The notes under the pieces were generated by a model. That model saw only the letters and a program-made list of their open reading frames with translations. It ran no database searches and was not told where the DNA came from. A program made the translations under genes and the position numbers. Below, one piece after another: positions 8,813 through 36,348 of a stretch of 45,817 bases of DNA. Position 1 is the stretch's first letter. Every line of letters starts with the position of its first letter. Origin of the DNA: Candidatus Nealsoniibacteriota bacterium (GTDB lineage Bacteria; Patescibacteriota; Minisyncoccia; Minisyncoccales; GWA2-38-27); contig JAUWYA010000004.1 of NCBI GenBank assembly GCA_030616085.1, forward strand, positions 1 through 45,817. Direction: 5' to 3'.

Positions 8813-9370
8813 TCAGGGGCAAGTGATGGCTGTTAATTCTTCTCTGCAATCGCTAGCTGTTAATTCAATCTCCCGGCCAGCTCCTTCTGAATCAACGCAC
8901 CAGCAATTTCCCAAATTCAAACTGGAAATAACTGCATAACCTGCCTCATCATCCTTACACCCGATAATTCCTTCAGAACCGTTATGTTCTGTAATATAAT
9001 CTTTAATCCGGCCAAAATCGTTATCATCAGATAAAGTAATATCGCCTGGATCGCAAACTCCTTCATAGGTTTCTCTGTTATTATAATACAATTCTGCTGC
9101 GTTCCTAACTTCTCTTAAAGCTGTTTTAACCACTGCATCTTCTCCCTCTTTTTTAGCGGAACCTGTACGGACTAAAACAATAGCAACTAAAACAGCAACT
9201 ATAGCAATTACTGCTAATAATTCAATTATAGTAAACCCTGTTAGAGGTTTGCTGATTTTGTGGTTCTTTTGTGCTTTGTTAACCTCTAACGGGGTAAACC
9301 CCCCACTTTTACTAAAAGTAGGGGGTATATCTTTCTTATTCTTTTTTCCAATACAAATAAACTGAGACAT
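8813..9370 (-). CDS. Type IV pilin paralogue with invaded leader
   Basis: This 185-aa prepilin has the pilin core GFTIIELLAVIAIVAVLVAI and a C-terminal domain with NCWCVDSEGAG and paired cysteines, paralogous to the major pilin upstream. Its leader is about 43 residues, far longer than the 4-10 usual for pilins. The excess (DIPPTFSKSG and FTPLEVNKAQKNHKISKPLTG) is encoded by two hairpin repeats, one at 9300-9325 and one at 9236-9294. The first GFT (GFTPLEV) is a target-duplication copy. The actual peptidase site is predicted before FTIIELL. The start codon is uncertain because of the insertions. Confidence 0.83.
   Translation of the reverse strand: MSQFICIGKKNKKDIPPTFSKSGGFTPLEVNKAQKNHKISKPLTGFTIIELLAVIAIVAVLVAIVLVRTGSAKKEGEDAVVKTALREVRNAAELYYNNRETYEGVCDPGDITLSDDNDFGRIKDYITEHNGSEGIIGCKDDEAGYAVISSLNLGNCWCVDSEGAGREIELTASDCREELTAITCP
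9236..9294. mobile_element. 59-bp CCCC/TGTTAGA inverted-repeat insertion in pilin leader
   Basis: Arms CCCTGTTAGAGGTT (9236-9249) and AACCTCTAACGGGG (9281-9294) are inverted repeats of the CCCCGTTAGA family. TAAA flanks both ends (9232-9235 and 9295-9298). The insertion is in frame and duplicates the pilin GFT codons. Confidence 0.65.
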
Positions 9371-19464: not shown

Positions 19465-19737
19465 TTAATAAGGTAAAAATGGATTGTCCCGTCCTATTTC
19501 TCCTTCAAAAGAAGGGGCCTTCTCAAAGACCTGTGATTCTTGCAAAAATTGGTTATCTAACACATCAAAATCTATTTTTATTTCTTTTATAGAGCCAACT
19601 GGAGCATTTTCTGAAACAGGTTTTGGTTTTCTAAAATATCCAAACCATAAAATGACAGCAGTAATTACAAACACTGCCATTAGAATTAGTGTTAAATACT
19701 TTTGCTTTTTTCTTTCTTGGATAAAATCAATGGGCAT
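19465..19737 (-). CDS. Small bitopic pilus-operon protein, possibly PilP-like
   Basis: The 90-aa protein has one TM helix (residues 14-34) and a short periplasmic tail ending EGEIGRDNPFLPY. A GRDNPF ending and the location after pilO and before pilB recall the N-terminus of PilP/GspC-type proteins, but the main PilP domain is absent. A role in linking the PilMNO platform to the motor is an inference. Its start codon lies within the target duplication of the adjacent GIY-YIG element (TATGC), so the ancestral junction with pilO was probably an overlap. Confidence 0.6.
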   Translation of the reverse strand: MPIDFIQERKKQKYLTLILMAVFVITAVILWFGYFRKPKPVSENAPVGSIKEIKIDFDVLDNQFLQESQVFEKAPSFEGEIGRDNPFLPY

Positions 19738-19738
19738 A

Positions 19739-20054
19739 CCCCGTAGAAGAATTTCGAAATATTCTTCAATTTTTTAAATTGAAAAAATACTCCTTTAATC
19801 TTCTTTTTAATAATCTTTGACCCTGTGTTGTTTTTAAATAATGTTCTCTTCTCCTGACATCTTTTTCATTTAAACATGCTTCATAATATATCAATATCCA
19901 AGGTCTATATGGTTTAGTAGATTTAACTAATCCTTGATTATGTTCTTTTAATCTTTTTCTTAAATCTAATGCGTAGCCCACGTAGAGATTTCTATTTTTT
20001 TCACTTTGTAAAATATAATTATAGAACATAATCAATTCGAAATTTCTCTACGGG
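19739..20054 (-). mobile_element. Putative minimal mobile element: TIRs plus a GIY-YIG gene
   Basis: Left terminus CCCCGTAGAAGAATTTCGAA and right terminus (inverted) CCCCGTAGAGAAATTTCGAA match at 18 of 20 positions. The 5-bp sequence GCATA (TATGC on the coding strand) flanks both ends (19734-19738 and 20055-20059). Nothing but the GIY-YIG gene lies inside. The insertion sits exactly at the pilO stop/next-gene start junction and supplies a new TAG stop for pilO. Confidence 0.7.
19766..20035 (-). CDS. GIY-YIG family nuclease carried by an inverted-repeat element
   Basis: This 89-aa single-domain protein shows the GIY-YIG fold: YNYILQ and NLYVGYALD (GIY and YIG strands), then DLRKRLKEHNQG with the catalytic Arg, and a Glu-containing helix near YYEACLNEKDVRRREHYLK. 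It is the size of the YhbQ/UPF0213-like group, whose members nick or cut DNA. The gene fills the whole space between terminal repeats, so it is probably the element's own function (as nuclease or transposition helper) and unrelated to pili. ATG at 20035 or 20029 could be used. Confidence 0.88.
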   Translation of the reverse strand: MIMFYNYILQSEKNRNLYVGYALDLRKRLKEHNQGLVKSTKPYRPWILIYYEACLNEKDVRRREHYLKTTQGQRLLKRRLKEYFFNLKN

Positions 20055-20626
20055 GCATAAGATTGGGCCTCCAGATTTAGATTAAAATCAAACAGGTCCT
20101 TTTTTTCTTCGGAAGAAGAAAAACCAATGGACTTAACTTCAATTAATCTGCTGCTTCTATAAACTGCGGAAAGAAAGTTCTTAAAAGCGGAATAAGAGCC
20201 GCTAACTGAAATAGAGAAAGACATTTTTTGAATTTTCCCTCCTGAATCCTCTTGGGTTGAACTTTGTTGAACTGAAGTCTCTGAAGAAAAAAGTCCGCTT
20301 ACGTCAATGTCTGTTAGGATTAAACCATTTTCTGAACTTGTTTTCTCAAAAAAATTAAGAAGATCAGCTATTGAAGAATCCTTAGGAAGAGCAGAATCAA
20401 TCTTAGAAAACTGCTCTTCATATGCTGACAACTTCTCTGAAAGAATTCCTAAGTTTAAAATATATTCCTCTTTTTTTCTAATCTCTTCATCTTTTGTCTC
20501 AATTTCTACTTTTTTCCATTTAAATTCCTGATATTTAGGCCAGCAAAGAAAATATCCTCCTAAGGCCAAAAGGATTAAAAGACAAATAAGAATAATTAAG
20601 GTGGTATGTTTAGAAGTAATCATCAT
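20048..20626 (-). CDS. pilO: Type IV pilus assembly protein PilO
   Basis: PilO is a bitopic inner-membrane protein that pairs with PilN to join the cytoplasmic PilM ring to the pilus. The 192-aa protein has one TM (TLIILICLLILLALGGYFL), a coiled coil (KWKKVEIETKDEEIRKKEEY) and a ferredoxin-like C-terminal domain with MSFSISVSGSYSAFKNFLSAV, the family hallmark. It overlaps pilN by 4 nt. The last two residues and the TAG stop (SYAP-stop) are encoded by the TIR of the GIY-YIG element. Without it the frame would read SYAH then TGA. Confidence 0.87.
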   Translation of the reverse strand: MMITSKHTTLIILICLLILLALGGYFLCWPKYQEFKWKKVEIETKDEEIRKKEEYILNLGILSEKLSAYEEQFSKIDSALPKDSSIADLLNFFEKTSSENGLILTDIDVSGLFSSETSVQQSSTQEDSGGKIQKMSFSISVSGSYSAFKNFLSAVYRSSRLIEVKSIGFSSSEEKKDLFDFNLNLEAQSYAP

Positions 20627-21285: not shown

Positions 21286-22407
21286 TTATTCTAATCCTTT
21301 CATTGCCGAACCCATGGCAACAGCATAAATCGGCCCTATTTCTTTTAAAGTATTGGTAAGAATTGCCGAACAGGCAATATTAGAAAAAGGATCAGCAATA
21401 TCTAATTCTTTTTTTAACTCTGTAGAAAAGTATTCTTTTAAACCAGGCATTAACACTAAGCCTCCGGCCAAAATAATCTTTTCTACTTCTTTTCCTTCTT
21501 TTAGATAAAAATTCCTAAACGCCTTCTTGATCTCTTCTAAAATTGAATCAATTAAAGGAATTAAAATCTTTCTAATATTCTTTGATTCTTCAAGATCATC
21601 ATTGATAATCAGTCCATGCTTTTTTTTAATCTCCTCAGCTTCATTATAATCAATATTTAAAGATCTGGCTATAATCTCTGTTAATTGATTGCCGGCAGTA
21701 TTAAAACTATGACTTATTTTTAAAACTCCTTGTTCAACAACACTGCAGGTAGTGCTTCTGGCTCCAATGTCTATCAAACCAATTACTTTCTTTTCTTTCT
21801 CATTTTCACCTCCTTTACCAAATTTTTGGTGTGAGGGTTTAATTAAAGCTCTAGTTAAAGCAAACACTTCTGATTCTAAGATTCTTAAGTTTAAATCAGC
21901 AAGACGAGCAATCTCTCTATACTGATTAACAATATCATTGGGAATAGCTACTACCAAAACTTTAAGAGCAGTCCCAGACGGCTCTCCTTCAATTATAGAC
22001 CAATCTAAAGTAACTTCATCTAAAGGAAGAGGGATATAGGGCCTGATTTCATATTGAACTGCTTGAGAAATTTCATCTTTAGCCATTGCTGGAAGCTTTA
22101 TACTGGTGAAGAAACTGCAAAAATCAGGAATAGAAAAATTGACTTCTTTGGCTTGAATTCCTGCTTCTTTAGAAATGACTTGAATACTTTTAGCTATTTC
22201 TTTATTAGAAAGAGAAAGAATGTTTTTTTGAAAAACCCTAAAAGATCTCCTTTTAAAAGATGAAGTATCTGATCCTCCGTAATTCTCAAGCTTGTATGCT
22301 TGGCCCTTGCGGCTAAGTTCAACAATTCTTACAAAAGAGGTGCCAATATCTATTCCTAAGAATTTCTTGGGCCTAAATCTAAATAAACTACTAATCTTGT
22401 CTAGCAT
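21286..22407 (-). CDS. pilM: Type IV pilus actin-like ATPase PilM
   Basis: PilM is a cytoplasmic actin-fold protein of the pilus alignment subcomplex. The 373-aa protein has the phosphate-1 motif FLGIDIGTSFVRIVEL (about residues 16-31), a central GLIDIGARSTTCSVVEQG (phosphate 2) and EKIILAGGLVLMPGL (adenosine motif). SEVFALTRALIKPS in the middle fits the PilM/FtsA group. The ATG at 22407 follows the inner end of a MITE-like element by 1 nt (GGGG-ATG). The ancestral start, near 22555, is separated from the gene by that element. Confidence 0.93.
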   Translation of the reverse strand: MLDKISSLFRFRPKKFLGIDIGTSFVRIVELSRKGQAYKLENYGGSDTSSFKRRSFRVFQKNILSLSNKEIAKSIQVISKEAGIQAKEVNFSIPDFCSFFTSIKLPAMAKDEISQAVQYEIRPYIPLPLDEVTLDWSIIEGEPSGTALKVLVVAIPNDIVNQYREIARLADLNLRILESEVFALTRALIKPSHQKFGKGGENEKEKKVIGLIDIGARSTTCSVVEQGVLKISHSFNTAGNQLTEIIARSLNIDYNEAEEIKKKHGLIINDDLEESKNIRKILIPLIDSILEEIKKAFRNFYLKEGKEVEKIILAGGLVLMPGLKEYFSTELKKELDIADPFSNIACSAILTNTLKEIGPIYAVAMGSAMKGLE

Positions 22408-22550
22408 CCCCGTAGAAGAATTTCAACAATTAATAATTATAATAATTATTTTTAATTAAATTAAAATTCTTCTTTAATTAAAATTATTTTCTTTTTACCC
22501 CGTTTATTTGGATTTTCTTTCAGAAAATCCAGTTGAAATTTCTCTACGGG
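22408..22550. mobile_element. Non-coding MITE-like relative of the GIY-YIG element, at pilM start
   Basis: Left terminus CCCCGTAGAAGAATTTCAAC (22408-22427) and right terminus, inverted, CCCCGTAGAGAAATTTCAAC (22532-22551) show the same left/right asymmetry (GAAGAA versus GAGAAA) as the GIY-YIG copy. GCAT flanks both sides. The interior is AT-rich, contains a hairpin GGATTTTC-TTTCA-GAAAATCC, and has no gene. Confidence 0.7.
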
Positions 22551-22574
22551 GCATTATTTAATTCTACCATAATT

Positions 22575-27997: not shown

Positions 27998-29563
27998 TTA
28001 CTTTCTAACCTTCTCAGTAACCCAAAAGCCCATATATTTTCCCAGCATCCAGCGGGTCTGAGCATCAAGAGCAGGGAGAGCGCCAAAAAATATCATCATA
28101 AATGGAAATAAAAGCCAGCCGAAAATAAAGATTAAATGTTTGTATTTGCCGTATTTTGGGGGTTTGGGAGGAAGCAAAAGAAAACTCAAATAAATAGAAC
28201 TTACCAAGCCAATCATAGCTAAAGTCATAACTCGGCTGATTATCTTTGGCAGATTATATGAAATTATGGTCTGAGAGAAATCGGGTCCTCCTAAAGCTAA
28301 AGGAAGCCAGCCCAATAAGAAAATCATAATGCTGGCAGTTGCCCAGGAAAAATGTCCTTCAACCAGCTCAATCCCTAAAGAGAGCTTTTTCAGAAAAGGG
28401 ATTTTTTTATTCTTATAAAATCCAAAAAGGAAATAAGCAATATCTCCTACTCCATAAGCCCATCTTCTTTGCTGTTTAAAGATGTTAATCAAAGTTCTGA
28501 AAAAACTTTTTGCTACATTAGCATCCATAGAAACTGGATAATACAGAGGCTGAACATGATAATCTCCATCATATTTCAAAAAGCACTGCCAAAAGATTCT
28601 TGAATCATCTGAAACAACGTTTGTTTGTTTAAAACCAACATCATTCAGCGCCTGAAAACTCATTGAATGAGAGGAAAAAGTTACCAATTTCTCTGCTCTT
28701 TCCTGATTCATAGCATGCCAAAAAGTTGAAGAAAAAGAAAAAACCCTGGAAATTGCCGGAGCCTGCCAGATATTGTTGATAAAAAGAGGAACAGGCTGAA
28801 AACTGGTTCTTGTTGGTTTTTCTGAAACAAGGTAATGATACGTCAAACAGCTAAAATATTTTGGGAACACGCAAGTATCAACATCAAAAGAAGAAAAAAC
28901 TATATTCTCATAAGCAATACCCAAAGGATCAATAATTTTCTCTTTTGCTTTTTTGGCTGCCCAAGTTTCATTAGACCCCTTGCCTGGAATTTCGCCTGGC
29001 AAATTATCAGGATGCCAGGTTATTAAGAATTTAAAAAACTTTGAGCTGAATTCTTCTTTAATTTGTTCTGCTATGACCTGGGTGGAATCCTTAAATTTCT
29101 CTTCACAAGCCAAAACAACAATCATTTTATCATTTGGATAATCTGTATTCTCTAAACTCTTAAAACCGTCTCTAACAATCTCTAATGACTCTTTAGTCAT
29201 TGGAATAATAATTAAATGATAGAGGTGTTTCCAGCTCGACAATTCATTAAGTTTTTCCATCCAATCGGTCTTTTCATGTTCTGCCATCTTCTTATATCCT
29301 GACCAGAGATGTAAAGAAAAATAAATGGTTCGGAGAAACCAAAAAATCACAAAGATTATAATAAAGACAGCAATCCAAATAGGCTTCCACCAGGAAAGAA
29401 AAACAACTGAAAACAAAAGTCCCCAAGACAAAACTCCTGGGAAAACTTCAAATAATCTAAAAAGAAATCTCTCTTTCAGGTTTTTCAAATCTTTTGCTCT
29501 GGCAACTCTAAGATAATAATCTTGTTCCACCCCGTTAGAAATACTCCTATTTTCTTGATTCAT
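27998..29563 (-). CDS. Family 2 membrane glycosyltransferase
   Basis: The protein (521 aa from this ATG) has two N-terminal TM helices (residues 40-85) and a GT-A domain. Motifs are IIIPMTKESLEIVRDGF, then VFSSFDVDTCVF (DxD-like), SDDSRIFWQCFL (acidic acceptor motif) and FKQQRRWAYG (QxxRW). Four further TM helices follow. QxxRW is typical of processive synthases such as cellulose or hyaluronan synthases; the polymer is unknown. The start region is invaded by an 82-bp element. The first 11 residues (MNQENRSISNG) come from it, and a GTG at 29530, rebuilt from the target duplication, would give the ancestral-like MEQDYYLRV start. Confidence 0.88.
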   Translation of the reverse strand: MNQENRSISNGVEQDYYLRVARAKDLKNLKERFLFRLFEVFPGVLSWGLLFSVVFLSWWKPIWIAVFIIIFVIFWFLRTIYFSLHLWSGYKKMAEHEKTDWMEKLNELSSWKHLYHLIIIPMTKESLEIVRDGFKSLENTDYPNDKMIVVLACEEKFKDSTQVIAEQIKEEFSSKFFKFLITWHPDNLPGEIPGKGSNETWAAKKAKEKIIDPLGIAYENIVFSSFDVDTCVFPKYFSCLTYHYLVSEKPTRTSFQPVPLFINNIWQAPAISRVFSFSSTFWHAMNQERAEKLVTFSSHSMSFQALNDVGFKQTNVVSDDSRIFWQCFLKYDGDYHVQPLYYPVSMDANVAKSFFRTLINIFKQQRRWAYGVGDIAYFLFGFYKNKKIPFLKKLSLGIELVEGHFSWATASIMIFLLGWLPLALGGPDFSQTIISYNLPKIISRVMTLAMIGLVSSIYLSFLLLPPKPPKYGKYKHLIFIFGWLLFPFMMIFFGALPALDAQTRWMLGKYMGFWVTEKVRK

Positions 29564-29611
29564 AATTTTAACATCAGCTAAAACCCCATTATTTCATAAT
29601 TTCTAACGGGG
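29530..29611. mobile_element. 82-bp CCCCGTTAGA element on the glycosyltransferase start codon
   Basis: Arms CCCCGTTAGAAAT (29530-29542) and ATTTCTAACGGGG (29599-29611) are perfect inverted repeats. TTCCA flanks both sides (29525-29529 and 29612-29616), a 5-bp target duplication. On the gene strand the duplicated TGGAA belongs to ATG-GAA, the ancestral start. The interior supplies an alternative in-frame ATG at 29563. Confidence 0.75.
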
Positions 29612-31418: not shown

Positions 31419-31497
31419 CCCTGTTAGAAATATACAAAATTAATGGGGTTTACAGAGTAAGTTATTATGACTAAAAAAACAAAAATTTCTAACGGGG
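31419..31497. mobile_element. 79-bp CCCC/TGTTAGA element on the tsaD start codon
   Basis: Arms CCCTGTTAGAAAT (31419-31431) and ATTTCTAACGGGG (31485-31497). TGAA flanks both sides (31415-31418 and 31498-31501). The ancestral ATG at 31414 (ATG-AA) follows a GATAAT -10 box by 5 nt. The duplicate on the gene side reads GTG-AAT. The interior shares CATTA(A)TTT...AAACCCC sequence with the glycosyltransferase copy. Confidence 0.72.
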
Positions 31498-36263: not shown

Positions 36264-36292
36264 ATTATACCCCGTTAGAAGTTTACTTGCAA
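36264..36292 (-). promoter_or_regulatory. tRNA-Leu promoter rebuilt by an inserted element
   Basis: TATAAT (36269-36264) lies 7 nt before tRNA-Leu. The best -35, TTGCAA (36292-36287), is exactly 17 bp upstream and lies inside the 79-bp element, whose target duplication TATAA covers the -10 box. Confidence 0.6.
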
Positions 36293-36348
36293 AACATTAT
36301 ATCTTATTTGATTGAAAAATACAATATTAACGAACACTTCTAACGGGG
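36270..36348. mobile_element. 79-bp CCCCGTTAGA element in the tRNA-Leu promoter
   Basis: Perfect arms CCCCGTTAGAAG (36270-36281) and CTTCTAACGGGG (36337-36348) are flanked by TTATA on both sides (36265-36269 and 36349-36353), a perfect 5-bp target duplication. No coding capacity. Confidence 0.8.

Follow-up and report, generated by a model that had tools for sequence, protein, structure and literature searches.

A family of ~0.3-kb inverted-repeat elements with a GIY-YIG nuclease as sole gene in ultra-small bacteria, and the inferred role of the nuclease in their mobility

In DDE insertion sequences, one gene lies between short terminal inverted repeats (TIRs), a short target-site duplication (TSD) is present, and gene-less copies (MITEs) are presumably moved in trans. 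RAYT/REPIN systems combine a small, low-copy nuclease gene with short palindromic gene-less elements that have hairpin ends. In homing enzymes such as I-TevI, catalysis resides in a GIY-YIG domain; the selfish elements that encode these enzymes require homologous flanks for homing and leave no target-site duplication. Penelope-like retroelements carry a GIY-YIG endonuclease domain and use it for mobility, and Slx1, whose partner is Slx4, cleaves branched DNA. To our knowledge, GIY-YIG enzymes hydrolyse DNA and none joins strands; the transposase chemistries we know of are DDE, HUH/Y1, tyrosine and serine recombinases, Cas1, and those linked to reverse transcriptase. In CPR bacteria, rRNA-gene insertions with GIY-YIG proteins have been described that are not introns and seemingly lie outside spread by homing (PMC11270868), and another study counts a GIY-YIG protein among the genes that other bacteria have received from Patescibacteria (PMC12455944). 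Our literature search, which did not cover subscription journals or ISfinder, found no description of TIR elements with a GIY-YIG gene, and the widespread mobile-element family in ultra-small bacteria reported here has apparently remained undescribed so far.

The element analysed here lies in a 45,817-nucleotide stretch of Candidatus Nealsoniibacteriota DNA (the window) and is a minimal form of insertion sequence: two imperfect TIRs of ~20 bp and one single-domain GIY-YIG gene. It shares the architecture and gene-less copies of DDE insertion sequences, but its 87-89-aa protein has no DDE domain, its length is only ~0.3 kb, and its target is non-palindromic and often a start codon; with GIY-YIG as its only gene and the rve genes of the genome unlinked to it, it does not qualify as one. 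The likeness to RAYT/REPIN systems is limited in the same way, in that the enzyme is a GIY-YIG and not an HUH Y1 protein, 4-bp duplications are present, and the RAYT-like genes of this genome have other palindromes. Membership of RAYT/REPIN or IS200/IS605 is not met, as no Y1 gene is linked and the 4-bp duplications covary on both sides. Unlike GIY-YIG homing endonucleases and the CPR rRNA-gene insertions, the element has TIRs, TSDs and dispersed new sites, with no intron and no extra recognition domain, and its dispersed copies with duplications exclude it from the homing endonucleases. Penelope-like elements would share the use of a GIY-YIG nuclease for mobility, whereas ours is a DNA element with TIRs and no reverse transcriptase. 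Finally, its protein has the sequence and fold of UPF0213 (1zg2, 1ywl) and Slx1, but those are host proteins that, as far as we know, carry no terminal repeats.

The element occupies 317 bp (positions 19739-20055, gene on the minus strand) at the junction of two pilus genes, and is delimited by its TIRs, its ORF and an empty site in a sister species. Its 'AG' end, CCCCGTAGAAGAATTTCGAA (19739-19758, plus strand), lies downstream of the nuclease gene, and its 'GA' end, CCCCGTAGAGAAATTTCGAA (20036-20055, minus strand), upstream. When inverted, CCCCGTAGAAGAATTTCGAA and TTCGAAATTTCTCTACGGGG (20036-20055) are identical at 18 of 20 positions, as the initial annotation of this DNA had recorded, and differ only at positions 10-11 (AG versus GA). 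The same annotation gave a length of 316 bp and a 5-bp GCATA duplication, both of which need correction: the TSD is the 4-bp CATA at 19735-19738 and 20056-20059, and the right-hand G belongs to the terminal GGGG. As it had described, the interior is filled by a single GIY-YIG gene (19766-20035, minus strand), the only ORF present, which encodes 89 aa from a TTG at 20035 or 87 aa from an ATG at 20029 and is supported by a PF01541 match above cut-off and by a structural model. It was also right that the insertion leaves both neighbours intact. The pilO-like gene (20048-20626, minus strand) now ends within the TIR, where its reading frame stops at a TIR-borne TAG (..SYAP*), and the pilP-like gene (19465-19737, minus strand) starts within the TSD, its ATG regenerated by the adjoining coding-strand TATG copy. 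The proposal of a minimal TIR element with a GIY-YIG nuclease as sole gene is thus supported; that the nuclease drives transposition remains an inference.

Other copies of these termini are found throughout the genome that holds the window (G000; 740 kb, 35 contigs). The sequence CCCCGTAGA occurs 28 times, and never in the reversed reading. Together with the variant CCCTGTAGA, these ends delimit 19 elements, namely the GIY-YIG element and 18 gene-less copies of 61-145 bp, and no gene other than GIY-YIG, and no transposase gene, lies between CCCCGTAGA-type ends in this genome. One gene-less derivative with the same ends (22408-22551, minus strand) lies directly before the ATG of a pilM-like gene (21286-22407); at this site the sister species cannot be aligned unambiguously. 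CCCCGTAGA, which the initial annotation took as the terminus, is correct for the window element (type A) but is not the sole terminus type. A second type in this genome (type B), CCCCGTTAGAGAT..ATCTCTAACGGGG, bounds two more complete GIY-YIG genes (L022 and L023), each alone inside, giving three TIR-bounded GIY-YIG genes in two terminus families. Gene-less type-B copies exist too, some with 5-bp duplications. Four lie in the window, none with an assigned strand: 9236-9294 (CCCTGTTAGAGG..CCTCTAACGGGG, TSD TAAA, empty site in the sister species), 29530-29611 (5-bp duplication TTCCA), 31419-31497 (TSD TGAA at the start codon ATGAAT) and 36270-36348 (5-bp duplication TTATA). A further GIY-YIG gene on contig C35 (L026) is divergent, gives only a weak match and has no visible TIR around it. 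Partial type-B GIY-YIG copies were also seen at or near contig ends (C3:1-147, C29:16433-16576 and C30:5-148), as if near-identical copies had broken the assembly, so the genome probably holds more copies than were counted.

Of the transposase families examined as possible mobilisers (DDE_Tnp_1, rve and Y1), DDE_Tnp_1 is absent from the genome, and none of the three Y1 and three rve loci has these ends around its gene. The Y1/RAYT genes were rejected for lack of such ends, two of the three having other palindromes, and rve was rejected because its flanks lack these ends. The two RAYT-like Y1 genes concerned, at C1:40690 (L145) and C15:2957 (L146), each lie amid a palindrome of their own (CTGGCGGTATCCGATACCGCCA and TATGAAGGTCGAACCTTCATA, respectively).

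To assess mobility, the flanks of 31 type-A and type-B elements were aligned to the sister species (G001), the sole other member of the genus in our genome set, all 543 kb of which were examined. Neither CCCCGTAGA nor the type-A nuclease gene is present in that genome. At its pilO/pilP junction no insert is present and the sequence is ..ACCCATGCCTATTGATTTTATTC..; the empty site had been predicted to read ..TATGCCCATTGAT, and the sister species has ..CATGCCTATTGAT. The finding that would have refuted the initial proposal, an orthologous pilO/pilP junction carrying the gene, was not met in any family member with a readable junction. Repeats might also have been missing from the remaining complete close copies of the gene in the window's genome, but all of these are bounded by TIRs of the related second type. 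Clean empty sites with a single 4-bp copy were found for L009:1003 (AAAG), L014 (CATT), L015 (CATA), two elements of L017 (CATA, CAAG), two of L021 (TATG, CAAG) and window position 9236 (TAAA); L020 and the window element (CATA) have empty sites too, at which minor local differences are seen. In all, the sister species has empty sites for at least eight elements besides the window element, each with a terminus identical or related to that of the window element, which implies that the elements moved after the two species split. This comparison is between different species at ~75-94% DNA identity, not between strains. With TIRs, TSDs and precise presence or absence at orthologous sites, the requirements for a transposable element are fulfilled, and we have very little doubt that these elements form a genuine mobile-element family. 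One type-B GIY-YIG insertion (L022 on C26, L028 on C1 of the sister species) is kept in both species, an unusual fate for a copy that is purely parasitic.

The target sites show a strong polarity. Perfect 4-bp TSDs flank 62 of 110 TIR-bounded genes (TATG 33, TGAA 11, TGGA 5, TACG 3, and others), and the right junction overlaps the ATG of a downstream ORF on the nuclease strand in 53 cases, with none in which this holds only on the other strand. Ten of the 19 type-A copies in the genome, the window element included, sit exactly at a start codon, compared with the 1.8% of non-coding positions that are start codons (p ~3e-13). The preference for TATG accounts for part of this bias, as 36% of non-coding TATG sites are start codons in any case, and start-codon insertion and co-direction may be partly due to selection. 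Gene-less copies are also found away from start codons, at TATA, TTGA and AAAG sites.

The two ends of the elements are consistently distinct. Of 44 gene-bearing type-A elements, 43 have GTAG[A/T]GA at one end and GTAG[A/T]AG at the opposite one, while the rest of the ends covary, so that a hairpin of the two ends retains a two-base mismatch. Single-strand folding with the ends paired gave z-scores of -5.7 for the window element and -5.8 for the miniature copy at 22408, the fold being one long hairpin. A strict rule by which TATG always adjoins the GA end was dropped because it fails across subfamilies, although it applies in this genome. A known RNA family was likewise rejected, as Rfam gave no match at the element and elsewhere only weak ones below gathering scores.

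The association between gene and repeats extends well beyond this genome. Within the order, relatives of the nuclease (E<=0.001) are present in 89 of 147 genomes and the degenerate terminus CCCNGTAGWRRAAWTTC in 28, with no match to the reversed pattern in all 147. An inverted repeat scoring at least 11 spans the gene at 44 of the 82 small GIY-YIG loci with flanking sequence; the same score is reached by 15 of 400 mismatched pairs of flanks and by 17 of 256 ordinary genes (6.6%). A scan of species genomes found 307 relatives, of which 80 were kept; 68 of these have repeats with a score of at least 11, nearly all 277-387 bp apart and with the GIY-YIG gene alone between them. A few of the 68 (for example L210 and L260) appear to be matches by chance, and the corresponding null (40 of 400) is inflated because of real terminus similarity between loci. 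By their record titles, the relatives come from many CPR lineages, and a few are labelled Planctomycetes, KSB1, TA06 or Omnitrophota (labels as given; mis-binning is not excluded). A phage origin was rejected, only two weak relatives being found in viral contigs.

Several kinds of terminus can be distinguished: GTAGA/GTAGT (type A), GTTAG/GTACG/GTATG (type B), GTAGG, GTAATAC, GTGAAG, CACACC and CGCCCTC. TIR similarity tracks protein identity (rho 0.63, 0 of 1000 permutations), and the protein tree requires 9 changes of terminus type, against 33-42 with shuffled labels. Linkage of gene and TIR alone predicts such co-divergence, so a shared history is demonstrated and not contact between protein and repeat. 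At least two gene-less type-A ends occur in 4 of the 7 genomes with a close type-A gene and in 13 of the 140 without one (Fisher p 0.0036); this excess is evidence for action in trans. Several of these 13 genomes have more distant GIY-YIG relatives.

The nuclease itself matches Pfam GIY-YIG (PF01541) with 57.8 bits against a cut-off of 22.6, and Tyr7, Tyr18, Arg28, His32 and Glu64 are 98-100% conserved across 101 TIR elements; the profile match, the conserved catalytic Tyr, Tyr, Arg and Glu, and the alpha/beta fold place it in the GIY-YIG superfamily. Its AF2 model (pLDDT 94.5) is closest in fold to UPF0213 1zg2 and Slx1, and its 87-89 aa comprise the catalytic fold without a further recognition domain. 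With TIGR01453, the model for group I intron endonucleases, only a sub-threshold match was obtained. Judged from dN/dS ratios of 0.09 for the insertion common to both sister species (L022/L028) and 0.04-0.28 in other close pairs, the gene is under purifying selection. Inside it, at 19976-19998 of the window, the YVG-motif codons (CCCACGTAGAGATTTCT, plus strand) resemble the terminus CCCCGTAGAGAAATTTC, which may be coincidence.

We favour, with moderate confidence, the explanation that the feature is an autonomous mobile element mobilised by its own GIY-YIG nuclease, which also moves the miniature derivatives; the role of the enzyme is inferred, without biochemical evidence. The nuclease would recognise the two termini once paired, probably in the form of a hairpin or cruciform on DNA that is single-stranded or being replicated, and would cut this structure at its foot. 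Recognition of a folded end is inferred, not shown, from the predicted Slx1/UPF0213-like fold and the TIR stem with its conserved two-base mismatch. A staggered 4-nt cut at a preferred target (TATG, TGAA) might follow, after which host ligase or repair would join the element in; this last step must come from the host, given that no GIY-YIG enzyme is known to us to join strands. Insertion at a non-palindromic target would be orientation-specific and, because non-coding TATG is often a start codon, would place copies between operon genes, where the downstream ATG is regenerated and the host transcript ridden. Gene-less copies would be mobilised by the nuclease in trans. Further points count against this explanation: termini are present in those 13 genomes without a close type-A gene, the genome has other transposase-like genes (three Y1 and three rve), the co-divergence of gene and TIR could reflect mere common descent, selection may underlie part of the start-codon bias, and the empty sites were seen in another species rather than in strains.

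The first two of these points also lend support to a reading in which an unrelated DDE or HUH transposase moves the elements in trans as ordinary MITEs, and the GIY-YIG gene is a captured passenger. Its candidates would be the three rve genes (IS481/IS30-like by eye) and the three Y1/RAYT-like genes, some genomes hold termini without a close GIY-YIG relative, and the 4-bp duplications resemble those of many DDE elements. We nevertheless consider this unlikely, with GIY-YIG the sole gene within CCCCGTAGA ends in this genome, the pairing of gene and TIR recurring in ~100 elements with several terminus types, and a purifying selection for which a passenger has no need.

It is also conceivable that the nuclease acts by homing, cleaving empty alleles into which recombination then copies the element, with dispersal to new sites being rare and due to other processes. 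GIY-YIG domains drive catalysis in homing enzymes, the TIGR01453 match (below threshold) points the same way, the insertion shared by L022 and L028 persists in both sister species with a low dN/dS (0.09), and many TIR-less relatives sit at tRNA genes. Homing alone fails because it leaves the dispersed target duplications unexplained: at least eight unrelated sites have gained copies with 4-bp duplications. Gene-less copies moreover outnumber gene-bearing ones in this genome, and the protein lacks a recognition domain outside its catalytic fold, making this reading a doubtful one. We hold it very improbable that hairpin ends and nuclease together make up a domesticated system that acts at operon junctions on the level of RNA or repair, for instance in transcript processing, with the repeats as a by-product. 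Placement at start codons, the strict co-direction (53:0), purifying selection and strong strand folding would all suit such a role, but gene-less copies lie away from start codons, many sites differ in presence between the sister species, and Rfam finds no match at the element.

Returning to mobilisation by the element's own nuclease, the broader claim would be that GIY-YIG nucleases form an unrecognised class of transposase, in which an 87-aa Slx1-like enzyme cuts hairpin ends in a structure-specific manner, inserts at TATG/TGAA start codons and mobilises ~300-bp elements and their miniatures across CPR bacteria and apparently other phyla. We lean only slightly towards this claim. If true, a tiny hydrolytic nuclease acting as sole protein would add a new transposase chemistry, and we know of no smaller autonomous elements than these (about 0.24-0.39 kb). 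Many repeats dispersed through CPR genomes, and many of their orphan GIY-YIG genes, would be explained, uncultured CPR bacteria would have a native mobility system, and a compact tool for DNA insertion might be gained. A direct test of the mechanism needs only one small protein and short DNA.

Two further patterns were seen among the relatives. Related small GIY-YIG genes without TIRs adjoin or interrupt tRNA genes (L034, L037, L040, L053, L069, L075, L086, L090, L107, L108 and L112), often with a partial tRNA duplicate (e.g. L069, L086, L108 and L112) and with REP-like hairpins upstream, which suggests a second mode of spread that targets tRNA genes. At L213, L229, L248 and L079, the terminus restarts directly after the element (tacgCCCGGTAG, tatgCCCCGTA), as if tandem elements shared one target copy.
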